From: Bacteroidales bacterium
GTDB taxonomy: Bacteria; Bacteroidota; Bacteroidia; Bacteroidales; UBA932
Direction: 5' to 3'
Length of the DNA: 61,984 nucleotides
Assembly (NCBI GenBank): GCA_017428245.1
Contig: JAFRRF010000037.1
Span: 1-61,984 of the forward strand
The notes beneath the pieces were generated by a model. It was not told the origin of the DNA and searched no databases. It saw nothing but the letters and a program-made list of their open reading frames with translations. Each line of letters opens with the position of its first letter. Position 1 is the first letter of the stretch. The position numbers were made by a program, and so were the translations under genes. Shown piece after piece: positions 2,253 to 13,872 of the stretch.

Positions 2253-3814
2253 TGAAGCGCAGGGATTTCCTCAAGGTCGGCCTGGCGGCGGGAGCCGCCG
2301 CCGGTCTCGCGCCCAGCCTGAAGGCCTGGGTGCCGCAGCACAATTGGCACAAGTACGATTTCGGTCCGGGTCCGGAAGTCAAGGACCGGCTCTATCAGGG
2401 TCCGTTCCCCTCCTACGCACCGGAAGATTATTTCGGCGAGGAGCCTGAAGTGGTCCAGTATACGATGCCCGGCAAGCAACTGCTCAATGCCTTCGGTATG
2501 GGTATGACCACCTATATTTCCGGCGACTACGGCGCGCCCCACGTGCCGGGGGAATCGTTGGAAACGACCATCGACAAACTGTTCCGTTTCCCGCTGGGGA
2601 CCAAGGTCCATATCCGCCCGAACTGGCGCCACATCCAGAAGAAGGCGGGGAAGCTGGATTTCGACGACTATTGGAAGATCACCTTCGACAAGGCCGCGCA
2701 ATATGGGAAGCGGGTGTGCTTCCGGGTGATGCTCAACAATCCCGATACGCTCGAGAACGCGCTGCCCGACTATGTCCTGAAGAAAGTGCCGCTCGACCAT
2801 CTGAAAGGGGAGTGGAAGGGCGATCCTTCGCAGCCCCGCTTCCAGCACGGGCACTATCAGCCGCGTTACAACGAGTACCTGATCGGGTATTTCGAAGAGA
2901 TACAGCACCTGCTGGCCGACCGCTACAACGGCAGCCCGCTCGTGGAATTCGTGGACACGCATATGTTCGGCTTCTGGGGCGAAGGCCACGCCTGGCCGTA
3001 TGAGGGGCACAATTTCGCGAACCGCAAGGAAGCGGAAGATACGTTCCTTCGGCTGTACGAGATCCAGCAGGCCGCGTGGACGAAGGTGCCGCTGGTGACC
3101 AACGTCCAGCCCGACCATAGCGGCGTGGGCAACTCCACGCTCGTGGACCGGTCGGTCCGCGACCACAACTGGCTGCGCCGCGACACGATCCTCGTGGACA
3201 GCGAGAGCATCGAACAACTGTGCAATCGTCCCGCCTGGACGGCGGCCTTTGTAGAGTGCGCGATGACGCGCGGCGACGCCTCCACCATCAAGCTCGATCC
3301 GTACGGCCGCCCCACGGGCGACGACGTGATCCTCCACGCCAAGGATGCCGGCGCCAACTATTATTCGCTCTGGAGTTTCCACAGCATCTGCGCGGAAAAT
3401 CTCGAGGCGTATTACCGAAAATATCCCGAAGCGCTGGACGACCTGGCGGGCTGTATCGGCTACCGCGTACGGCCGTCCTTCATCTGGCACGGCAAGGACA
3501 AGGAAGACCTGGATTTCCTGATTATCGGAATGACGAACGACGGCATCGCCGGTGTCCCCGGCGTGCTTCGGCTCACGCTCTTTACCGACGACGGGGAAGT
3601 GTACGTGAGCGGCTGCCTCGACGCGGGGTATCCCGACGTGGAAGGCGTCCGTTCCGGAATGATGTACCTGCCGAAGGGATTCGACTGGAACTGCGGCCGG
3701 CTCCGTCTCAAGGCGGAACTGGAAGTCAAAGGCGTCCGGTATCAGGTGCCTTTCGCCGTGGCGGAACCGCTCAATCCCGACGGGTCGCTGACCATCAAGA
3801 AAAATAATCGATGA
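2252..3814 (+). CDS. Tat-exported glycoside hydrolase-like TIM-barrel protein (copy 2)
   Basis: A 520-residue paralog of the preceding gene, similar along its whole length (same MKRRDFLK start, RPNWRHIQK, VMLNNPD, GFWGEGHAWPY, C-terminal DGIAGVPGVLRLT). The frame is open further upstream, but the start at 2252 is clear: it overlaps the previous stop as TAATG and supplies the twin-arginine signal. The tandem arrangement points to a local duplication. Differences lie mainly around residues 40-60 and 310-340, which could change substrate preference. It is followed by an ATGA overlap with the histidine phosphatase, so translation is probably coupled. Probably periplasmic; exact activity unknown. 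Confidence 0.75.
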   Translation: MKRRDFLKVGLAAGAAAGLAPSLKAWVPQHNWHKYDFGPGPEVKDRLYQGPFPSYAPEDYFGEEPEVVQYTMPGKQLLNAFGMGMTTYISGDYGAPHVPGESLETTIDKLFRFPLGTKVHIRPNWRHIQKKAGKLDFDDYWKITFDKAAQYGKRVCFRVMLNNPDTLENALPDYVLKKVPLDHLKGEWKGDPSQPRFQHGHYQPRYNEYLIGYFEEIQHLLADRYNGSPLVEFVDTHMFGFWGEGHAWPYEGHNFANRKEAEDTFLRLYEIQQAAWTKVPLVTNVQPDHSGVGNSTLVDRSVRDHNWLRRDTILVDSESIEQLCNRPAWTAAFVECAMTRGDASTIKLDPYGRPTGDDVILHAKDAGANYYSLWSFHSICAENLEAYYRKYPEALDDLAGCIGYRVRPSFIWHGKDKEDLDFLIIGMTNDGIAGVPGVLRLTLFTDDGEVYVSGCLDAGYPDVEGVRSGMMYLPKGFDWNCGRLRLKAELEVKGVRYQVPFAVAEPLNPDGSLTIKKNNR

Positions 3815-5115
3815 CGAATATGAATACTTCCATCCGTAACCTGCTCCTGTGCCTGCTTTTCGCTACAGTGCCGGGTGCCGTGCTTTTCGCCCAGGAAGAC
3901 CCGCAGTGGGCGAAGCAAGACGTTCTTTCCGAGGCCAGCCGCTGGGGCGGTACTTTCGGCCTGTATCCGGAAGGACAGCCCCTTCCGCCGCGTCCGCCGA
4001 AGGGATACAAGCCTTTTTATCTCAGCCATATGGGCCGTCACGGCTCCCGTTTCGTCGATGGCTCGGACTTCTATCCGGGGATGTACCGGATCTGGAAGAC
4101 GGCGGACGAAAAGGGCTACCTGACGCCGGAAGGGAAGCGCTTCTTCGAGGCCTATGCCCAGGTATATCCCCGGATGCTCTATCACGAAGGCATCCTGACG
4201 ATGAAGGGCCAGCGGCAGCACCGGCAGATCGCCGGCCAGATCTACCGGAACTATCCGGAGATTTTCCGGGGACAGACGCAGCTCGTGGCGCTCTCGACGG
4301 AATCGTCGCGTGTGATCGTGAGTATGCTCTGCTGCCTCGACGAACTCTCCGACCTCGACCGCGACCTGACCGTCCTGGTGGACTATGGCCGTCCGTATTA
4401 TTCGATGCTCATTCCGGAGAGCCATTCCAATCCGAATTACAAGCCGATGGAGCCTTTCACGAAGGAGGCCATAGGCAAGTACGAGCAATTTGCCAAAGCG
4501 GTCTTCGATGAAGAGGCCGTGATCGGACGCTGGTTCACTTCGACCGAGGATATCGGACTGGACCGCGAGTCGTTCATGTACGACATGATGCAGCTGGTGT
4601 CCGACTGCAGCAACCTCGATTTTGCCGTACCGGAGGCGCTGACCGACGTTTTCACGCCCGAAGAGCGGTACGCGATCTGGCGGGTCCAGAACTACAGCGA
4701 CTATATGTATACGGGCGTGGCGCCCGGCGTGGACCGGCGTCGCTTCCTGGAAATGTCGGTCGCTGCCAAGGACATCATCGACCGTTTCGAAGAAGACCAG
4801 GAGAACGGCATCTCGATCCGGATGCGCTTCTCGCACGACACGGCCCTGGCGCCGCTCATTTCCTATCTCGGTGTGAACGGAATGGATGCGATGATCGACA
4901 ATCCCTACGATGTCGAGAAGGTGTGGCGGAGCTATGACATCCCCATGGCCTGCAATTTCCAGCTCGTCTTCTTCCGCAGCCGCCGGGCGCCCGACGAGAT
5001 CCTCGTCCAGGCGCTGCTCAACGGATTCTGTGCCACGCTGCCGCTTCCCGAAGTGGCGCCGGGCTTCTACCGCTGGTGTGATTTCAAGGCCAAATTCGGC
5101 GAACTGGCCATTTAA
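3811..5115 (+). CDS. Histidine phosphatase superfamily protein, branch 2 (exported)
   Basis: A 434-residue protein with an N-terminal signal peptide ending near the Ala-Gln at 27-28. The branch-2 histidine phosphatase signature is present: SHMGRHGSRF with catalytic Arg76-His77, and the distal SHDT motif with His342-Asp343 acting as proton donor. Branch-2 members include acid phosphatases, phytases and MINPP-type inositol phosphatases; which substrate is used here cannot be told. The start at 3811 overlaps the upstream stop (ATGA); an alternative ATG lies three codons downstream. Its position between putative glycosidases and a GH31 enzyme suggests that the cluster handles a phosphorylated glycan or glycoside, which is only an inference. 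Confidence 0.85.
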   Translation: MTNMNTSIRNLLLCLLFATVPGAVLFAQEDPQWAKQDVLSEASRWGGTFGLYPEGQPLPPRPPKGYKPFYLSHMGRHGSRFVDGSDFYPGMYRIWKTADEKGYLTPEGKRFFEAYAQVYPRMLYHEGILTMKGQRQHRQIAGQIYRNYPEIFRGQTQLVALSTESSRVIVSMLCCLDELSDLDRDLTVLVDYGRPYYSMLIPESHSNPNYKPMEPFTKEAIGKYEQFAKAVFDEEAVIGRWFTSTEDIGLDRESFMYDMMQLVSDCSNLDFAVPEALTDVFTPEERYAIWRVQNYSDYMYTGVAPGVDRRRFLEMSVAAKDIIDRFEEDQENGISIRMRFSHDTALAPLISYLGVNGMDAMIDNPYDVEKVWRSYDIPMACNFQLVFFRSRRAPDEILVQALLNGFCATLPLPEVAPGFYRWCDFKAKFGELAI

Positions 5116-5127
5116 AGAAAACGTGTT

Positions 5128-6711
5128 ATGAAAAGAGTTCTGACCGTCCTGCTTCTCCTGCTGGCCGGCGCGCTGTCCGCCCGGGAGGCGAAGGTGGCCA
5201 TGCTCCCCGGGGAAAGATGGTGGGGCTGCGTCACGGACCTCGGTGTCCGGATGCCTTTCGATGCTTCCACGGACTTCGCCTTCGACCTGGCCCGGCAGAA
5301 TTTCAACAACCAGACGACGCCGCTGCTCCTTTCCGACAAGGGGCGGTACATCTGGTGTGACAAGTCCTTCGCTGCCGTCATTTCGAAGGGAGAAATCAGG
5401 ATTACGCCGCACCACGGCGGCACCGTAATCTGCAAGCAGGCCGGAACGACGCTCCGGGAAGCCTTCCTGGCTGCTTCCGCCGCTCATTTCGCGCCCAGCG
5501 GAACGATTCCGCCGGAGATGTTCCTCAATAAGCCCCAATACAACACCTGGATCGAGTTGGTCTACGACCAGAACCAGGCGGACGTGCTGAAGTATGCCCA
5601 CGGCATCGTGGACAACGGCTTCCCGCCGGGCATCCTGATGATCGACGACAACTGGCAGAAATATTATGGCAGCACGGAGTTCCGGCCGGACCGTTTCCCC
5701 GATCCGAAGGGGATGGTGGACGAACTGCACGCCCTGGGTTTCAAGGTGATGTTGTGGATCTGCCCCTTCGTGTCGCCCGACAGCCAGGAGTATCGGATGC
5801 TGCGCCGGAAAGGCTATCTGGTGATGGATGCCCGGCGCGACCGTCCCGCCATCCTCGACTGGTGGAACGGACTCAGCGCCTGCTACGACCTGAGCAATCC
5901 GGAGGCGTATGCGTATTTCAAGAAGACGCTGACCGATCTGCAGGAGCAGTACGGGATCGACGGCTTCAAGTTCGACGCCGGCGATCCGGAGCGCTACCTG
6001 CAGGAAGATACCCGTCCATTCGACGGGAAATCGTTCGATACCGACCAGACGATGCTCTGGGCCAAACTGGGCCTGGAGTTCCCCTACAATGAGTTCCGCG
6101 CCTGCTGGCGGATGGGCGGCGACGCCCTCGTCCAGCGCCTCGGCGACAAGTCCTATTCCTGGCAAGCCGTCGCCAGCCTCGTCCCGGATATGATTGCGGC
6201 CGGTTTACTGGGACATATCTATACCTGTCCCGATATGATTGGCGGCGGCGAATTCGGCAGCTTCCGGAACGTGGACCAGGGCAAGATGGACCAGGAACTG
6301 ATTGTCCGTTCCTGCGAGATCCACGCACTGATGCCGATGATGCAGTTCTCGGTGGCGCCCTGGCGTGTCCTCGATGCGGAGCATCTGGCCATCTGCCTGA
6401 AGTACGCCCGGCTGCACGAGGAGCTCGGCCCATACCTGGTGGAGCAGGCGAAGCTCGGCGCGCAGACCGGCGAGCCCATCGTCCGGAGCATGGAATATGC
6501 GTTCCCGGGCCAGGGCTTCGAGACCTGCATCGACCAGTATATGCTGGGCGACCGCTATCTCGTCGCACCGATGATGACGCCCGGCACCACCCGGTCCGTC
6601 CAACTCCCGAAAGGCCGTTGGGTGGACGAGAACGGCAAGGTATATAAAGGCGGAAAAACCTATGAACTGGAGGTTCCGCTCGACCGGGTGCCCCGTTTTA
6701 CGCGGAAATAG
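5128..6711 (+). CDS. Glycoside hydrolase family 31 protein (MYORG-like)
   Basis: A 527-residue protein with a classical signal peptide (residues 1-18). The segment IDGFKFDAGD carries the GH31 nucleophile, Asp283, in the form typical of the MYORG/YihQ-like branch rather than the classical WxDMNE form. The upstream LMIDDNWQ and the VMLWICPF strand fit GH31 barrel strands. The second carboxylate is probably in the VPDMIAAG/CPDMIGGG region. Family members cleave alpha-glucosides, alpha-galactosides or sulfoquinovosides. It is the last gene of the forward cluster and converges with glsB, leaving only 10 bases between the two stops. Confidence 0.85.
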   Translation: MKRVLTVLLLLLAGALSAREAKVAMLPGERWWGCVTDLGVRMPFDASTDFAFDLARQNFNNQTTPLLLSDKGRYIWCDKSFAAVISKGEIRITPHHGGTVICKQAGTTLREAFLAASAAHFAPSGTIPPEMFLNKPQYNTWIELVYDQNQADVLKYAHGIVDNGFPPGILMIDDNWQKYYGSTEFRPDRFPDPKGMVDELHALGFKVMLWICPFVSPDSQEYRMLRRKGYLVMDARRDRPAILDWWNGLSACYDLSNPEAYAYFKKTLTDLQEQYGIDGFKFDAGDPERYLQEDTRPFDGKSFDTDQTMLWAKLGLEFPYNEFRACWRMGGDALVQRLGDKSYSWQAVASLVPDMIAAGLLGHIYTCPDMIGGGEFGSFRNVDQGKMDQELIVRSCEIHALMPMMQFSVAPWRVLDAEHLAICLKYARLHEELGPYLVEQAKLGAQTGEPIVRSMEYAFPGQGFETCIDQYMLGDRYLVAPMMTPGTTRSVQLPKGRWVDENGKVYKGGKTYELEVPLDRVPRFTRK

Positions 6712-6721
6712 CAGGCGCAGG

Positions 6722-7774
6722 CTATAGCTTCCGGCCGGCTTTCTTGAGCATGCGCTTTACCTTGCGGTTGCGCTTGGCCAGCCAGTTGTTGACCATTTCT
6801 TCTTCGGTTTCGGGGACGTCCTGAACTTTCTTCTGGCGCCTTTTTTCGTGGAAGAACCGGAGATAGGCCCCGATATGGCGCTGCTTCTTTTCGTGGTAGA
6901 TCGCATCGAACGGGAGCAGGACTCCGGTGTCTTCGATGTTGTCCATCAAGTGATTTACCGCCGTACCGAACATCAGCATATCGGAAGTGACGGAAAGATA
7001 GGCGGTCATATTGGGCGGGATGGTGACGCCCCGCATTTTTGCGGCGTTCTTCAGCAACAGATAATCTTCCGCGGGGTCTTCCTTGTGGATGACCAGATCC
7101 ATCAGTTCAGGATCGGAATTGGGCAGCAGCGCCTGGTCGTCCCAGGGGCGGACCAACTCTTCTTTGTCCCCGAAATGCTTCCAGAGGAAATGGTAGATCA
7201 GGTCGCGGGAAATGTGGTCGTATGAAGGATAGATGGTGATCTTGCCGAAGAAGTAAAGCAGGTTGGGATGCTTCATGATGATCGCCACCAGGCCGTCCCA
7301 CAGATTGTCGAGGGCGAAGATGGATCTTTTGCCGTCCTTGGAGGGAACCACGAAATTGCGGCCGAGTTCTATCACGTGCGGCAGGTAATCGTCGATGAAT
7401 TTCTGCGAGAAACGGAACTGATGGGAACTGGCCAGGACGGGCTGGCCGTTCTCGTCGAATGTCGCATCCGAGCCGAAGAGGAAACGGTAACCGCCGATAA
7501 TGGCCTCTTCGTCCGGATCCCAGACGATCAGCTGCTTGTAGGGTTTCTCCATCTTGTCGTATTCATCGAGGTCCAGTTCGTTGCCCGTAGAGCCGCCGGC
7601 ATCGCGGAATACGAATTCGCGCAGGCGGCCGATTTCCGTGACGACATTGGGGGAATCCTGCCAGGTTACGATGTAGAGTTCGTTATGCCCCTTGTTGGTG
7701 TCTTCCAGTTTCTTGGACGGGGTGAGTTCCGCCTTGAGCAGTTCGACGGGAACGGGGTCGATGATTGTTTTCAT
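6722..7774 (-). CDS. glsB: GNAT-type N-acyltransferase of glycine/ornithine lipid synthesis (GlsB/OlsB-like)
   Basis: A 350-residue cytoplasmic or membrane-associated protein with the acyl-homoserine-lactone-synthase-like GNAT fold seen in OlsB and in GlsB of Bacteroides. Characteristic segments are LREFVFRDAG, IIGGYRFLFG, VIELGRNFV and FFGKITIYPSYD. By family it N-acylates an amino acid (glycine in Bacteroides, ornithine elsewhere) with a 3-hydroxy fatty acid. The start at 7774 (MKTIIDPVP) was chosen because residues further upstream overlap the partner gene. It follows glsA by 13 bases on the same strand; the pair together would make the diacylated lipid. The C-terminus is Lys/Arg-rich. Confidence 0.85.
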   Translation of the reverse strand: MKTIIDPVPVELLKAELTPSKKLEDTNKGHNELYIVTWQDSPNVVTEIGRLREFVFRDAGGSTGNELDLDEYDKMEKPYKQLIVWDPDEEAIIGGYRFLFGSDATFDENGQPVLASSHQFRFSQKFIDDYLPHVIELGRNFVVPSKDGKRSIFALDNLWDGLVAIIMKHPNLLYFFGKITIYPSYDHISRDLIYHFLWKHFGDKEELVRPWDDQALLPNSDPELMDLVIHKEDPAEDYLLLKNAAKMRGVTIPPNMTAYLSVTSDMLMFGTAVNHLMDNIEDTGVLLPFDAIYHEKKQRHIGAYLRFFHEKRRQKKVQDVPETEEEMVNNWLAKRNRKVKRMLKKAGRKL

Positions 7775-7787
7775 AGGATGGGGAGTT

Positions 7788-8645
7788 TCAATCGATAGAG
7801 GATGGCCAGGGATTGGAAACGATGCCGGCCATTTCGAGCATGGTTTTGTGGGCAAGATCGCGTATGCGTGCCGTCTCTTCCTTCCGGGGTGCCTTGGGGT
7901 CCGGGATGATGGGATCGCCTACGTGGATGGTAATCAGCGGCTCTCCATTGCCGAACCATTTGCGCCATCCGGTGCGGGGCCGGAATGAAATCACCATCGG
8001 GATGACAGGGAGGGCATATTTGTAGGAAAAATTGAAGGCGCCCGTTTTGAAGGGCCTGAGCGGCGAATAAAACTTCCAGCTGCAGCTTTCGGGGAATATA
8101 TGAATCCATTTCTTCCGCTCGTGAAGCTCTTTCATGGCTTCGTCGAATTTGCTGAGTCCGCTGAACGTCTCGGGGATGGGGATGCCGCCTACATATTTCA
8201 TCTTGAAGCCGTCCTTTCCGTTGAAAGGTTCCGCATACATCGGAATCCAGGCCATGCGGTAGCGCATCGCCTGCAGCACGCAGACCATATCCCACCGGTG
8301 CACGTGATTGCATACCGTCATCACCCCTCCGGCAAAGAGTTTCCGGTTCCGGCGGATTTTCTCGCGGCCTTCGATCTTCAGGCCGAAGCGGATCCGGTTC
8401 AGCGGAAAGCCGACAATCCAGACAATCAGATAGACAAGCGTATGGAGGAACTTGAATTTCAGCGATTTGTCCAGATATGCGTATGTCCCGTCGAAATTTA
8501 TTTCCTTGTTTTTCCCGCGGATGGGGGCCATCCGCGTAAACGGATTCTCCCCGGAGAATTCCTCTACCGGCTCGGGAACGTAGACATCTTCCCGTACCTT
8601 GAAGTTCCGGTACGCGGGGCCGAATGATGAATAGTCTTTTACCAT
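7788..8645 (-). CDS. glsA: 1-acyl-glycerol-3-phosphate acyltransferase family protein (GlsA/OlsA-like O-acyltransferase)
   Basis: A 285-residue PlsC-superfamily acyltransferase. The catalytic NHxxxxD box is NHVHRWD (residues 113-119), the substrate-binding box is FPES near 184-187, and a membrane segment lies around residues 66-85. In Bacteroides the adjacent GlsA adds the second acyl chain to the N-acyl amino acid made by GlsB; the coupling here suggests the same role. It is the promoter-proximal gene of the pair and has its own -7 box 18 bases upstream. Which amino acid is acylated cannot be told from sequence. Confidence 0.85.
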   Translation of the reverse strand: MVKDYSSFGPAYRNFKVREDVYVPEPVEEFSGENPFTRMAPIRGKNKEINFDGTYAYLDKSLKFKFLHTLVYLIVWIVGFPLNRIRFGLKIEGREKIRRNRKLFAGGVMTVCNHVHRWDMVCVLQAMRYRMAWIPMYAEPFNGKDGFKMKYVGGIPIPETFSGLSKFDEAMKELHERKKWIHIFPESCSWKFYSPLRPFKTGAFNFSYKYALPVIPMVISFRPRTGWRKWFGNGEPLITIHVGDPIIPDPKAPRKEETARIRDLAHKTMLEMAGIVSNPWPSSID

Positions 8646-8695: not shown

Positions 8696-9277
8696 ATGAA
8701 AAAGATTCTGTCGTATGTTTTGGCGGCGGCGATGGTCCTTGCCCTTGCCGCGCCGGTGAAGGCGCAGTCGATCGGGCGCCTGCATCAGAATGAGTTTGCC
8801 CTTTCTTACGGGCAGATCAGTTTTCCCCAGACGATATATGTGCTCGGCGAGGTCCTGGGCGTTGCCTTCAGCCTGGGCCAGTTCGCTCCGGAGGACACGA
8901 AGTTCTATGGCCAGTTCGGGGTTGAGTACACCCATTGGGTCGGCAGAAGCGTGGGTCTGGGCCTGATGGCGGCGTGTGATTATATGACCTCGACCGTCAA
9001 TGGAGGGGAATCGCCCGGTTACAATCTGTTCGTCGTTTCGGCGCTTCCCGTTTTCAAGGCCTCGTGGTTCAACTATCCGCACGTGGGAATGTATTCCAAG
9101 ATCGGGGCGGGTGTGTCCGATTTTATCGGACTGGACAGCGAGCATCAGCACCAGTTCGTCTTCGCTTTCCAGTTGTCTCCGGTCTGCGTCGATTTCGGCG
9201 GGGAACATTTCCGGGGATTCGTGGAAATCGGCTATGGCGCGCAGGGGCCCTGCGGCGGTGTCAAATATGTCTTTTAA
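8696..9277 (+). CDS. Predicted small outer-membrane beta-barrel protein
   Basis: A 193-residue protein with a clear signal peptide (MKKIL start, cleavage near VKAQS, residues 22-24). The mature part has alternating amphipathic strands rich in Gly, Phe and Tyr and ends in Val-Phe, as expected for an eight-stranded porin-like barrel inserted by BAM. No named family is recognised. The first ATG is chosen because it provides the signal peptide. The gene converges with the PatB-like gene; both stop codons sit in the same TTTTAAA stretch. Confidence 0.75.
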   Translation: MKKILSYVLAAAMVLALAAPVKAQSIGRLHQNEFALSYGQISFPQTIYVLGEVLGVAFSLGQFAPEDTKFYGQFGVEYTHWVGRSVGLGLMAACDYMTSTVNGGESPGYNLFVVSALPVFKASWFNYPHVGMYSKIGAGVSDFIGLDSEHQHQFVFAFQLSPVCVDFGGEHFRGFVEIGYGAQGPCGGVKYVF

Positions 9278-10536
9278 ATGACTTTGCGGATGCGGGACAG
9301 GGCTTCTTCCACGATGCTCCGGGGACAGCCGACATTGAGCCGTACGAAGCCTTCTCCGCCCGGGCCGTAACCGGCACCGTTGTTGACCACGACGCCGGCC
9401 TTTTCATTGAACAGGTCGATCAATGCGTCTTGCGGAAGGTTCAGCGCGCGGCAGTCCAGCCAGACCAGGAACGAGGCTTCGGGGCGGATAGCCCGGATGC
9501 CGTCCGATCCGTCCAGTGCGCTGACAACGGTCTCGATATTATCCTCTATATAATGCTTCACTGCCTCGAGCCAGTCGGGCTCGTGGGTATAGGCTGCGAT
9601 GGTCGCTTCGATCGTGAAGATCGACGCTTCCCGATTCTTGCAGTTTTCCAATGTGGCGTGAAACCGTTCCCGCTTTTCCGGGTCGGGGATGATGCAATAG
9701 GCCGTTCCGGTTATTCCGGGGATGTTGAAGGCTTTGGTGGGGGAGCCGAAGCCGATGCCGATGCGTGCCGCGGTTTCGCTGACGCTGCAGAACGGGATAT
9801 GATGCCGGCCATACAGCGTGAGGTCGCCGTGGATTTCGTCGGAAAGGACGATGACACCGTGCCTGTCGCAAATCTCCGCCAGACGGGCAAGCGTTTCCTG
9901 CGGCCACACGATGCCGACCGGGTTGTGCGGGTTGCAGAGCACCAGGATCTTCGTCCTGGCGTCGAACAGGCGTTCCAACCCCTCGAAATCCATCTCGTAA
10001 CGGCCGTCGCGGAAGATCAGGGGATTGTCTGTCACGACACGCCCCAGGCGCTCGGCGTACGACTTGAAAGGGTCGTAGACGGGCGGCTGGACGATTACCT
10101 TGTCGCCCGGTTCCGAGAAGGTGAGGTAGGCCTGGCAGATCGAGGCGATGACCCCCGGGCAGTATTCCACCCATTCCGTAGGCACGTCGAATCCATGCCG
10201 GGTCTTTTCCCACCCGGCAATGGCTTCGAAGAATTCATCAGGTCCGTAGGTATAGCCCAGCACGTCACGGTCGAGCCGACGGCGCATGGCTTCGCTGACA
10301 TATGGCGCGGTGCGGAAATCCATATCGGCGATCCACATCGCCAGTTTTCCGTCTACGGCCCGGCGCTGCTTGATGCTCCAGGTTCCGGAGCGGTCGATCA
10401 GCTCGTCGAAGTTCCAGGCCGCAGCCGCCGGCTTCTTCGGCGTACACCCTTCCAGGGCGGAGCCGAGTACACCTACGGGAAGGACGGAGGCCAGTCCGGC
10501 CGCCGCCGCTCCTTTAAGAAAAGATCTGCGTTTCAG
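9274..10536 (-). CDS. PatB/MalY-family PLP-dependent C-S lyase with N-terminal Tat/lipoprotein signal (CTG start proposed)
   Basis: The frame from its only plausible ATG (10338) begins at MWIADMDF, which in PatB/MalY proteins is about 30-40 residues into the domain. Translating the open frame upstream to the stop at 10558-10560 recovers the missing family segment (FDELIDRSGTWSIKQ) preceded by KRRSFLKGAAAAG, a twin-arginine signal, and a possible lipobox LEGC (Cys31). No ATG, GTG or TTG exists there; CTG at 10536 gives a 420-residue protein and lies 5 bases after the stop of the upstream gene. PLP lysine is in SPTKAFN (Lys268), with CNPHNPVG and DEIHGDL also present. Family activity is cystathionine or cysteine beta-lysis releasing H2S or thiols. 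Export of a PLP enzyme would be unusual. Confidence 0.75.
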   Translation of the reverse strand: MKRRSFLKGAAAAGLASVLPVGVLGSALEGCTPKKPAAAAWNFDELIDRSGTWSIKQRRAVDGKLAMWIADMDFRTAPYVSEAMRRRLDRDVLGYTYGPDEFFEAIAGWEKTRHGFDVPTEWVEYCPGVIASICQAYLTFSEPGDKVIVQPPVYDPFKSYAERLGRVVTDNPLIFRDGRYEMDFEGLERLFDARTKILVLCNPHNPVGIVWPQETLARLAEICDRHGVIVLSDEIHGDLTLYGRHHIPFCSVSETAARIGIGFGSPTKAFNIPGITGTAYCIIPDPEKRERFHATLENCKNREASIFTIEATIAAYTHEPDWLEAVKHYIEDNIETVVSALDGSDGIRAIRPEASFLVWLDCRALNLPQDALIDLFNEKAGVVVNNGAGYGPGGEGFVRLNVGCPRSIVEEALSRIRKVI

Positions 10537-10541
10537 GGTAA

Positions 10542-10826
10542 CTAGGCTTTTTTCTCCTTAAAATCGTCGATCTTGGCTTTGGCCTTGTCGCCGAGATCCC
10601 TTGCTTTTTCCGCGGCCTTTTCGCCCAGGTCCTTGGCTTTTTCGCCCAGATCCTTGGCTTTTACGGAAGCCTTGGCATAGAGTTCCTTTGCGTCTTCTTT
10701 CGCTTCGGCATAGGCTTTTTCCAGTTTTTCCTTGGCCTGGTCGGCCTTGTACTGGATTTTTTCAGAGAAGGTTACTTTCCCGTCGCCGTTGAGGTCCATA
10801 GGGTTCTTGGGGGTTTCTTCACTCAT
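10542..10826 (-). CDS. Small EF-hand protein with LEA/apolipoprotein-like helical repeats
   Basis: A 94-residue protein without a signal peptide. Residues 11-22 form a canonical 12-residue EF-hand loop (DLNGDGKVTFSE, ligands at positions 1, 3, 5, 7, 9, 12). The rest is a long Lys/Glu/Ala helix with repeated KAKDLGEK units, like LEA-type or amphipathic repeat proteins. An ATG nine codons upstream was rejected because the -7 box at 10851-10858 would overlap it. The stop lies 5 bases before the proposed start of the PatB-like gene, so the two are probably co-transcribed. Function unknown; calcium binding is plausible. Confidence 0.7.
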   Translation of the reverse strand: MSEETPKNPMDLNGDGKVTFSEKIQYKADQAKEKLEKAYAEAKEDAKELYAKASVKAKDLGEKAKDLGEKAAEKARDLGDKAKAKIDDFKEKKA

Positions 10827-10850
10827 TGCAGTAGTACTTTGATGTTTTGA

Positions 10851-10858
10851 CAAATTTA
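10851..10858 (-). promoter_or_regulatory. Promoter -7 box of the EF-hand/PatB-like operon
   Basis: TAAATTTG on the minus strand, an exact TAnnTTTG match, ending 24 bases before the ATG at 10826. The divergent L-cysteine desulfidase gene starts 70 bases away on the other strand with only a degenerate box near 10895-10908. Confidence 0.55.
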
Positions 10859-10928
10859 GTCTTTTTTGGTGGAATTATACGGGTAAATGTCGTTTATTTT
10901 GTATATTTAACATTCAAAACCGTGCAAA

Positions 10929-12230
10929 ATGACAGATCTGCATACCCGTGAGCGCATCCTTGCGCTGATCCATAAAGAAGTCGTTCCGGCCATCGGCTGT
11001 ACCGAACCCATGGCCGTGGCGCTCTGTACGGCCCGCGCCGTGGAACAACTGGGCTGCCGGCCCGAAAAGATCGAAGCGCTGCTGAGCGCCAATATCCTGA
11101 AAAACGCAATGGGCGTGGGCATTCCCGGGACGGGGATGACCGGTCTTCCGATCGCCATCGCGCTGGGCGCGCTCATCGGCAGGAGCGAGTACAGTCTCGA
11201 GGTGCTGCGCGACCTTTCTCCCGAGTCGCTGGAGGAGGGGAAACGTTTCATCGGAGAAGACCGCATCGATATCGACTTGAAAAAAGGGATTTCCGAGAAG
11301 CTGTATATCGAGATCGTCGTATCGGCAGGGGACCGGCAGGCGACGGCCGTCATCGCCAAGGGGCACACGAACTTCATTTTCGTGGAGAACGGTCGGATGG
11401 ACGATGCGACGCTGAAGCGGCTCCTTCCCGCCGATGCCGCCCGGGAGGAGGATGACGGGGACATAGCGCTCAATCTCAAACTGGTCTATGATTTCGCCAC
11501 CAGTGCGCCGCTCGACGAAATCCGTTTCATCCTGGAAACACGCGATTACAATATGCGTGCGGCCCGGGAAGCCATCAAGGGCAACTACGGACATAATCTG
11601 GGAAAGACCATCGACCGTCCGCTTTCGAAGGGCATTCTGGGCAACAGCATCTATTCGCATATGATTTCCCGTACGGCGGCGGCCTGCGACGCCCGGATGG
11701 GCGGGGCGATGATTCCCGTGATGAGCAACTCGGGCAGCGGCAACCAGGGCATCTGCGCCACCAACCCGGTCTGCGTGTTTGCGGAGGAAAATGAGAATAC
11801 GGAAGAGGAACTGATCCGGGCCCTGACGCTGAGCCACCTGACCGCCATCTATATCAAACAGTCGCTGGGCCGTCTCTCCGCCCTCTGCGGTTGCGTGGTG
11901 GCCAGCACGGGAAGCAGCGTGGGCGTCACCTACCTGATGGGCGGCGACTATACGCATTGCTGCGCGGCCGTGAAGAATATGGTGGCCAATCTGACCGGCA
12001 TGATCTGCGACGGGGCGAAACCTTCGTGTGCGCTGAAACTCACCTCGGGCGTCTCGACCGCCATCCTCTCCGCCCTTCTTGCGATGGAAGGGAAGTGCGT
12101 CACTTCGCAGGAGGGCATTGTCGACGACGACATCGACCGTTCGATCCACAACCTGACGGCCATCGGGGCCGATGCGATGTGCATTACCGACGAGATGGTG
12201 CTCCGGATAATGACTTCCAAGGGATGTTGA
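10929..12230 (+). CDS. L-cysteine desulfidase (CdsB/CyuA, UPF0597 family)
   Basis: A 433-residue member of the L-serine dehydratase alpha-like family that includes YhaM/CyuA. It is expected to hold a [4Fe-4S] cluster and convert L-cysteine to pyruvate, ammonia and H2S in the cytoplasm. Supporting segments are VVPAIGCTEP (Cys24), the glycine-rich GVGIPGTGMTGLPIA, SNSGSGNQGI, and the later cysteines in LSALCGCVV and YTHCCAAVKN. It is transcribed divergently from a second putative C-S lyase, so this 3-kb segment looks dedicated to cysteine/thiol breakdown. The DUF6377-type regulator gene starts 4 bases after its stop. Confidence 0.88.
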   Translation: MTDLHTRERILALIHKEVVPAIGCTEPMAVALCTARAVEQLGCRPEKIEALLSANILKNAMGVGIPGTGMTGLPIAIALGALIGRSEYSLEVLRDLSPESLEEGKRFIGEDRIDIDLKKGISEKLYIEIVVSAGDRQATAVIAKGHTNFIFVENGRMDDATLKRLLPADAAREEDDGDIALNLKLVYDFATSAPLDEIRFILETRDYNMRAAREAIKGNYGHNLGKTIDRPLSKGILGNSIYSHMISRTAAACDARMGGAMIPVMSNSGSGNQGICATNPVCVFAEENENTEEELIRALTLSHLTAIYIKQSLGRLSALCGCVVASTGSSVGVTYLMGGDYTHCCAAVKNMVANLTGMICDGAKPSCALKLTSGVSTAILSALLAMEGKCVTSQEGIVDDDIDRSIHNLTAIGADAMCITDEMVLRIMTSKGC

Positions 12231-12234
12231 TGCG

Positions 12235-13872
12235 ATGAGGCGGCCGTGTTCCTTCCTGCTCCTTTCGCTGCTGGCACTCACGGTGTCGGCGGCGTGTGGC
12301 AGAACGGACCGGCTGGACCGTCCGACGCGGCAGCTGCTCGATGAACTGGACGGTTATGTTTCGGCCCGGAATGTCTATGTGGCCCGCAAGCTCGACCGGA
12401 TGGACGCCCTGCGCAAGCTGGCACAGGGAATTTCCGATCCGCTGCTGCGCTACGAGACGGAGATGAATATCGCTTCCGAGTATTTCCCCTTCAGTTTCGA
12501 CTCGACCCAGCATTACCTCAAGCACTGTCAGGAACTGGCCTCGGAGCGCCTCCGGGATCCCGACCGTTTCAATGCGGCCTCCATCCGGCTCGGGCATCTC
12601 TATGCCAAGGCGGGCAGTTATATGGAAGCGTACAATCTTCTCTACGAGCAGATCGATACGGCTTCGCTTTCGCCTGAGCTGAAGACGGACTATCTGCTGA
12701 CATTGTATGATTTCAGTATGGATCTGGCCGGCAATTCCGGTATGGTGGAACGGCTGAACATCGCCGATGCCGCTTCGTTCCGCCCTGCGTTGTATGAACG
12801 GCTTCCCAGGGATTCCGAATCCTGGCGCAGCATTTTGCGGGACGATTTTTTCGCACAGGGACGCTATGCGCAGGCCGACAGCGTGGGACACCTTCTGCTT
12901 GCCTCCACGAAACCCGATGAACACGCCTATGCCATCTATGCCTTTTACCTGTCGGATATCGCCGACAGGGAGGGCCGTTCCGCCGACCGGCTGACCTGGC
13001 TGGTCCGTTCCGCCGAGAGCGACCTGATCAATGCCGTCAAAGACTACGCGTCGCTGACGATGGTGGCCCAGAGCATCCTTCCCGTCGATATCGACCGTTC
13101 TTTCCAGTATCTCCGCATCGCGCAGGAGGATGCGCTGTTTTACAACGCCAAGCTCCGCCCCTGGCAGATTTCCCGTTTCCTGATCCAGGTGCAGGATGCT
13201 TATTCGAGCCGGCAGGTGCGGATGCGGCGTTTCGCCGACTGGGCGTCCATCCTGCTGGCGGTCCTGGTCATTGCGCTGTCGGTCATCTCCTGGTTCTATG
13301 TTTCCCGTTCCCGTAAGCTTTCCCAATTGCAGAAGCAGCTGGAAGAGAGCAATGCACAGCTGATGGCGGTCAACGAAGCGCTGAACGGGTTCAACCGGCA
13401 GATTTCCTCGTCCGACCGGATGAAGGAGAGCTTCATCATTTCTTTTCTGGAGAGTTTCTCCAACCAGATCCATCTTTTCCGTACCGAAGACAACCGGATC
13501 CGCAACCTGGTCAAGCGGGGACGGACCGATCAGCTGCTCAAGGATGCCGGTCTCTCCGAAAGGGCGGAAAAGGCGCGTGAAGATTTCTACAAGACGTTCG
13601 ATACCACGTTCCTGGCGATGTATCCCGCTTTCGTGGAGCAGTTCAACCAGCTGCTGCGGGAAGAGGCGAGGGTCACGCCGCCCAAAGGCCGCCTGAACAC
13701 AGAGCTCCGGATCTTCGCGCTCATCCGTCTGGGCGTGGACGATTCGCGTCGTATCGCCACGATGCTCGACTATTCTCCGAGCACGATCTACAACTACAAA
13801 GTCTCGGCGAAGAACAACGCCATCGGTGACCGCGATTCGTTCGAAGAGCGTGTGAAAAAGATCGGAAAGTAG
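12235..13872 (+). CDS. Membrane-anchored DUF6377-type transcriptional regulator
   Basis: A 545-residue protein: N-terminal signal or anchor (residues 1-21), TPR-like helical repeats to about 320, a transmembrane helix (FADWASILLAVLVIALSVISWF, about 331-352), a short coiled coil (LQKQLEESNAQL), and a C-terminal region ending in a helix-turn-helix (RIATMLDYSPSTIYNYK). This layout is typical of DUF6377 regulators beside SusC/SusD pairs in Bacteroidota: the periplasmic part senses a sugar and the cytoplasmic part binds DNA. The susC gene follows after 215 bases, so it is the likely regulator of this locus. It starts 4 bases after the cysteine desulfidase and may be co-transcribed with it. Confidence 0.82.
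   Translation: MRRPCSFLLLSLLALTVSAACGRTDRLDRPTRQLLDELDGYVSARNVYVARKLDRMDALRKLAQGISDPLLRYETEMNIASEYFPFSFDSTQHYLKHCQELASERLRDPDRFNAASIRLGHLYAKAGSYMEAYNLLYEQIDTASLSPELKTDYLLTLYDFSMDLAGNSGMVERLNIADAASFRPALYERLPRDSESWRSILRDDFFAQGRYAQADSVGHLLLASTKPDEHAYAIYAFYLSDIADREGRSADRLTWLVRSAESDLINAVKDYASLTMVAQSILPVDIDRSFQYLRIAQEDALFYNAKLRPWQISRFLIQVQDAYSSRQVRMRRFADWASILLAVLVIALSVISWFYVSRSRKLSQLQKQLEESNAQLMAVNEALNGFNRQISSSDRMKESFIISFLESFSNQIHLFRTEDNRIRNLVKRGRTDQLLKDAGLSERAEKAREDFYKTFDTTFLAMYPAFVEQFNQLLREEARVTPPKGRLNTELRIFALIRLGVDDSRRIATMLDYSPSTIYNYKVSAKNNAIGDRDSFEERVKKIGK

Follow-up and report, generated by a model that had tools for sequence, protein, structure and literature searches.

To our knowledge, PatB/MalY lyases are treated as cytoplasmic enzymes. 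In the consulted sections of a review devoted to them, the words periplasm, signal peptide, secreted and extracellular are absent (PMC11203769). Another related system is cyuPA of E. coli, where CyuA together with its importer CyuP allows cysteine to be used as sole carbon or nitrogen source (PMC9040844). On the translational side, the closest parallels are bacterial genes starting with GTG or TTG and coupled gene pairs, which share with the patB gene presented here a non-ATG start and a short gap after an upstream stop (PMC11445065, PMC10666635). Unlike those GTG and TTG codons, the CTG of patB lies outside the standard start set.

The window, that is, the whole stretch of 61,984 nucleotides of Bacteroidales DNA that was analysed, contains this patB gene close to a cyuA-like gene. 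Like the known PatB/MalY proteins (TIGR04350; PDB 6qp3, a PatB, 4dgt, and 1d2f, a MalY), its product keeps the whole domain and the active-site motifs. In contrast with 6qp3, it carries a predicted 30-residue Tat-lipoprotein signal and a linker before the domain; residue 49 of the window protein aligns with residue 2 of 6qp3, which therefore has no such N-terminal part. The locus resembles E. coli cyuPA in the presence of a cyuA-like gene and, because this gene neighbours patB, cysteine breakdown is a theme common to both. The partner of cyuA is different, however: the importer CyuP in E. coli and a predicted exported PLP lyase in the window. The features of the region are the following:

8696..9277, plus strand: convergent gene of 193 aa without family match; by eye the product looks signal- and beta-barrel-like
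9274..10536, minus strand: patB-type gene for a C-S lyase; with the CTG as first codon it has 420 codons and a stop (43 aligned exported-type genes)
9277..10410, minus strand: PatB lyase domain, residues 43-420 (TIGR04350)
9733..9735, minus strand: Lys268 in SPTKAFN, expected PLP lysine, aligned with APSKTFN of 6qp3
10336..10338, minus strand: first in-frame ATG, Met67, too far downstream for the full domain
10444..10446, minus strand: lipobox cysteine, residue 31, expected lipidation site
10447..10536, minus strand: predicted twin-arginine signal peptide, residues 1-30 (KRRSFLKG ... LEG)
10534..10536, minus strand: CTG at the homologous start codon
10542..10826, minus strand: gene of a 94-aa charged helical protein, YtxH-like below the Pfam cut-off (PF12732, 25.5 bits, cut-off 37.5), 5 nt upstream of the CTG
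10558..10560, minus strand: in-frame stop TAA closing the patB frame upstream
10851..10858, minus strand: TAAATTTG, similar to the Bacteroides -7 promoter box, which would drive a two-gene transcript
10929..12230, plus strand: cyuA-like L-cysteine desulfidase gene, divergent here (PDB 9fsl, 8.4e-37; PF03313)

A predicted exported PatB subfamily

The TIGR04350 model matches residues 43-420 of the product with 389.3 bits (cut-off 340) and all 23 members of our alignment A1 at 1e-60, and the nearest solved structure by sequence is the PatB 6qp3 (1.4e-96). K268, presumably the PLP lysine, is invariant in the 23 rows of A1, as are D233, N205, Y154 and R399, whose roles we assume from the fold-type I family.

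The first-pass annotation had proposed that the gene hides an N-terminus with a Tat-lipoprotein signal, and the relatives strongly support this through their twin arginines, their cysteine and their aligned standard starts. The Tat signal model PF10518 passes its cut-off narrowly (23.1 against 22.7 bits) and matches 19 of the 23 members of A1 at E 0.01. Because RR stands at residues 3-4 in all 43 distinct aligned genes, this match is not a chance one. The lipobox of the window protein reads LEGC; Cys31 is invariant in the 23 rows of A1 and the lipobox cysteine is preceded by G, A or S in 43/43 genes, while E at lipobox position -2 is found in the window PatB alone. TatC, taken as the mark of a Tat translocase, is encoded in the own genome (1.9e-61) and in 14/14 genus genomes with an exported patB, but since it is also found in 37 of the 40 genus genomes overall, its presence is permissive and not discriminating. 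The aligned starts of the relatives, together with RR and Cys, fix the N-terminus and so argue that the predicted Tat-lipoprotein PatB is real. Judging from the sequence, the window PatB should, like its relatives, be a Tat-exported lipoprotein.

How widespread is this type? Exported-type genes are present in 14 of the 40 genus genomes, own genome included, the other 13 being 64-74% identical. The own genome carries one exported-type copy; in its PatB paralogue (45% identity) the match runs from the domain onwards. At E 1e-135 or better, a limit chosen to pick the exported type, 30 of the 398 genomes searched in the family match, and they belong to 4 of 25 genera, own genus included. Among the best 80 of 579 loci from a contig scan, 25 (L037-L061) match from query residues 1-8 and were taken as the exported type, with rumen or omasum named in the titles of 10. 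Inspection of 55 loci yielded 43 distinct exported-type genes including that of the window. In a quick tree these 43 form one group apart from eight cytoplasmic PatB rows (support 100), a ninth having been left out because of a stop and the long cytoplasmic branches being flagged as possibly misplaced; the window groups with eight genus rows including L006 (support 97, same tree). No description of a Tat-exported PatB was found among the matches listed for the literature searched. We consider the predicted exported PatB subfamily a solid result and a new variant of a known enzyme.

The first signal codon of the 43 genes is ATG in 39, TTG in two (L059:3001 and L128:1006), GTG in one (L043:3001) and CTG in the window, the codon of L060 having been assigned by hand with an upstream stop present. 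CTG is thus found at this codon in 0/42 distinct relatives. L043 has an in-frame GTG 18 codons upstream and L128 an in-frame ATG 13 codons upstream, so both genes may start elsewhere. For L059 there is no other in-frame start upstream of the TTG, so that at least one member of the subfamily tolerates a non-ATG start.

Reading frame and CTG codon of patB

The frame at 9274-10557 on the minus strand is open for 427 codons. Its upstream limit is the in-frame TAA at 10560-10558, after which the codons read GGA GAA AAA AGC CTA GTT ACC CTG AAA CGC AGA. Over the whole open frame there is no ATG, GTG or TTG ahead of the conserved domain. The sole NTG codon ahead of KRRSFLKG is the CTG at 10536-10534, separated by 5 bases from the TAG (10544-10542, minus strand) that ends the upstream gene. 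Reading the frame thus bears out what had been noticed at first, namely an open frame devoid of standard starts before the domain, with a CTG just past the upstream stop. The CTG, genuine in the assembly sequence, stands at the homologous start position, where no standard start is available, and would serve as the start codon.

The earliest in-frame ATG, GTG or TTG is the ATG at 10338 (Met67). As no standard start codon precedes it in the frame, the protein might begin there as a short cytoplasmic PatB. Nevertheless, the domain match begins at residue 43, so that a start at residue 67 would cost 24 modelled residues, of which seven positions are invariant in A1 and five in the 43-row alignment; the initial remark that this ATG cuts into the conserved domain was right. 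Relatives starting at MWIADMDF, for which a check had been proposed, were not what we found, as in 42/42 the signal begins with a standard start codon. For these reasons (truncated TIGR04350 domain, invariant positions lost, starts of the relatives) the start at 10338 was rejected and is the least probable of the readings weighed here. The 42 homologues with a matching N-terminus likewise reject the idea that this part of PatB is a chance or antisense artefact.

A start codon would also be dispensable if a -1 shift at GAG AAA AAA GCC fused the upstream protein to PatB. Indeed, the patB frame is -1 relative to that of the small gene, and six A stand in a row ahead of the stop of the latter. However, GAG AAA AAA GCC is not a classical slippery heptamer in this frame. 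Moreover, KEKK-like tails are present in homologues without patB behind them, the relatives have free-standing starts, and within the fusion the signal would be internal and should not direct export. Such a shift is very improbable.

Can ribosomes start at this CTG? In E. coli, initiation at all 64 codons has reportedly been measured in one study. One study of coupling puts the emphasis on overlaps and on very short gaps. Reinitiation in gene pairs of E. coli drops by 5-70% when the gap is +2 and by 40-80% when it is +14; in Haloferax it is substantially lower at a +13/14 gap, and beyond about 20-40 nt it is nearly gone (PMC10666635). The strictness of codon choice by ribosomes in reinitiation-type events is influenced by IF3 and RRF (PMC2268962), and CUG complexes do form in E. 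coli but are described as weak and inefficient (PMC11497404). The +5 gap of patB falls between the +2 and +14 gaps that still reinitiated in E. coli pairs.

Upstream of both genes, the TAAATTTG box, which we take to resemble the Bacteroides -7 box consensus, is kept in G032. The box was first spotted by eye and then counted, the 10-mer TAAATTTGTC occurring twice in the window against 0.02 expected; this 10-mer is also present upstream of a helical-protein homologue in L254. No sigma-70-type promoters were found in 9200-11000, and no special RNA structure at the patB start region (z 0.03). In the mechanism that we propose, the box would start a transcript probably comprising the small helical-protein gene and then patB. 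The CTG would be used mainly by ribosomes that, having ended the upstream gene at the TAG, reinitiate 5 nt on with low efficiency. PatB, with its twin-arginine signal and lipobox, would fold with PLP in the cytoplasm; the folded protein would be moved by Tat and lipidated at Cys31, and would then act on the periplasmic side by cleaving cysteine or its conjugates.

We also considered whether CTG starts are a habit of this genome. Comparison of 1,387,652 of the 2,365,349 own-genome bases with 795,639 bases of G037 gave 856 reciprocal-best open frames, 510 of which were dropped for overlap with a better-scoring frame; of the 346 left, an ATG start could be anchored in G037 for 154, the other 192 failing identity or anchoring limits. 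At the 154 anchored starts the own codon is ATG in 138 cases, TTG in two, CTG in one (patB), another codon in 13 and GTG in none. For 12 of the 14 rows with neither ATG nor TTG, an ATG, GTG or TTG lies within 10 codons, the two exceptions being patB itself and a row of L235 with TGT, which is doubtful. A lineage-wide CTG-start habit is thus not supported. The lineage is strict on ATG and therefore the CTG of patB is odd, which counts against an efficient start. A change from Met to CTG is in itself not rare, since no other codon replaces Met more often at internal columns (108 of 2097).

Rearranged surroundings and integrity of patB

In seven of 13 genus relatives (L006-L011, L016) patB is followed by the cyuA-like gene on the same strand. 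No cyuA was found within 1.5 kb of patB in L012, L013, L015, L017 and L018, and the surroundings of L014 end at the contig end. In the window cyuA still lies beside the patB region, but it is divergent and the 94-aa helical-protein gene stands in between. Homologues of this helical protein are found at E 1e-6 in 16/40 genus genomes including the own one, in varied contexts. By eye, the small protein (10542-10826, minus strand) contains an EF-hand-loop-like DLNGDGKVT followed by a lysine/alanine-rich stretch.

The gene order of G032 is cyuA, helical-protein gene, fucosidase gene (PF01120) and convergent 8696-type gene, and its exported patB is on another contig than this order. The patB flanks of the window match G032 on both sides (83% identity along 1.6 kb, 90% along 112 nt), so that patB fills the slot held by the fucosidase gene in G032. 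This collinearity with G032 on either side of patB makes a chimeric contig at the join unlikely. The stop codon of patB lies inside TTAAAAGACATATTTGA, a stretch shared with G032, where it forms part of the end of the convergent gene. In the window, the end of the convergent gene (8696..9277, plus strand) overlaps the patB stop; over the final 36 residues of its product, identity to L254 is 94%. As the stop lies in a shared stretch and 5 nt separate the first codon from the upstream stop, both ends of patB abut possible joins. Homology of the 8696-9277 gene to the G037 gene beside a helical-protein gene was not supported (E 0.038).

A recent loss of the start codon would fit these surroundings: patB would have been placed behind the helical-protein gene and its start turned into CTG by mutation or at the join, with the frame still undecayed. 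The context rearranged with respect to the relatives, the patB stop in sequence shared with the convergent neighbour, the two possible joins and the presence of CTG in only 1/43 genes and 1/154 starts all point in this direction. The state of the gene, on the other hand, does not. There is no stop or frameshift in the patB frame. In the 43-row alignment, where the first residue was entered as M, 92/457 columns are invariant in all rows, and the window has 0 private changes at otherwise invariant columns; this test is weak, because 25 of the other 42 rows also have 0 (26/43 with the window). Window and L006 differ at 85/67/213 sites at codon positions 1/2/3. For the window branch, the nonsynonymous/synonymous counts of private changes are 22/6, compared with 17/4, 25/6 and 15/5 on the similarly long branches of L013, L015 and L016, and with 5/6, 6/6, 5/10 and 5/1 on the shorter ones of L006, L011, L012 and L014; these counts, with saturated sites excluded, are small (28 changes on the window branch). 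Because the window counts resemble those of comparable branches and are not relaxed, constraint was held over most of the window branch, though a recent loss would leave no trace. Also, a random single change spoiling an ATG would presumably give CTG, the one remaining NTG, in about 1 in 7 cases. Overall the patB gene looks intact, and recent start loss is possible but on the unlikely side.

Finally, the true codon might be ATG. The CTG would then reflect an erroneous consensus or base call, or a minor strain variant, in an assembly of draft quality that comprises 62 contigs and has a listed contamination of 3.52%; CTG is one base from ATG. Yet the collinearity of the patB flanks in G032 speaks against a chimera of unrelated pieces, and a single-base error at precisely the start base would be improbable a priori. 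We give this explanation a small chance.

Weighing these arguments, we estimate at about even the chances that patB is a real exported C-S lyase gene translated via a coupled, probably weak CTG start, and we favour this over recent silencing, the alternative that the first-pass annotation had set beside it, and over base-call error. The CTG start is favoured by the standard start that 42/42 relatives have at this position, by the intact gene, by the CTG being the sole NTG codon, by the +5 gap and by the TTG of L059. It is disfavoured by the poor performance of CUG in E. coli (PMC11497404), by the lack of any other CTG in the 154 starts and of structure at the start region, and by the position of patB outside the patB-cyuA arrangement of seven relatives, which fits a displaced gene losing function. 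More tentatively, and with the balance somewhat against it, we suggest a broader reading: patB, once behind a translated small gene, was freed of the need for a standard start and its CTG is used by termination-reinitiation, in a subfamily that shifts cysteine-conjugate cleavage and sulfide release to the periplasm of gut Bacteroidales.

Possible role and neighbouring genes

Since a Tat-lipoprotein form of PatB is predicted in 14/40 genus genomes and in three further genera of this family, cysteine compounds may be cleaved in the periplasm of gut Bacteroidales, in some of them alongside a cytoplasmic desulfidase. H2S or thiol release by the exported PatB may fairly be expected outside the cytoplasm, in line with the first-pass annotation. 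The CTG of patB can serve as a natural experiment on whether a non-standard start codon is offset by coupling to an upstream gene, and it is a reminder that start-codon rules in automatic gene calls can cut off signal peptides.

Some minor observations concern other genes of the window. Beside cyuA, a DUF6377/SusR-like regulator is encoded at 12235-13872 on the plus strand (SusR model 396.4 bits, below the cut-off of 480), and a regulator of this kind is also found downstream of cyuA in L038, L040 and L046. Two overlapping genes at 6722-8645 on the minus strand suggest glycine-lipid synthesis: one encodes a GlsB glycine N-acyltransferase (NF053696, 376.5 bits, cut-off 300), the other a PlsC-type acyltransferase (PF01553). 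A family 31 glycoside hydrolase gene (5128-6711, plus strand) adjoins a histidine-phosphatase-like gene (3811-5115, plus strand).
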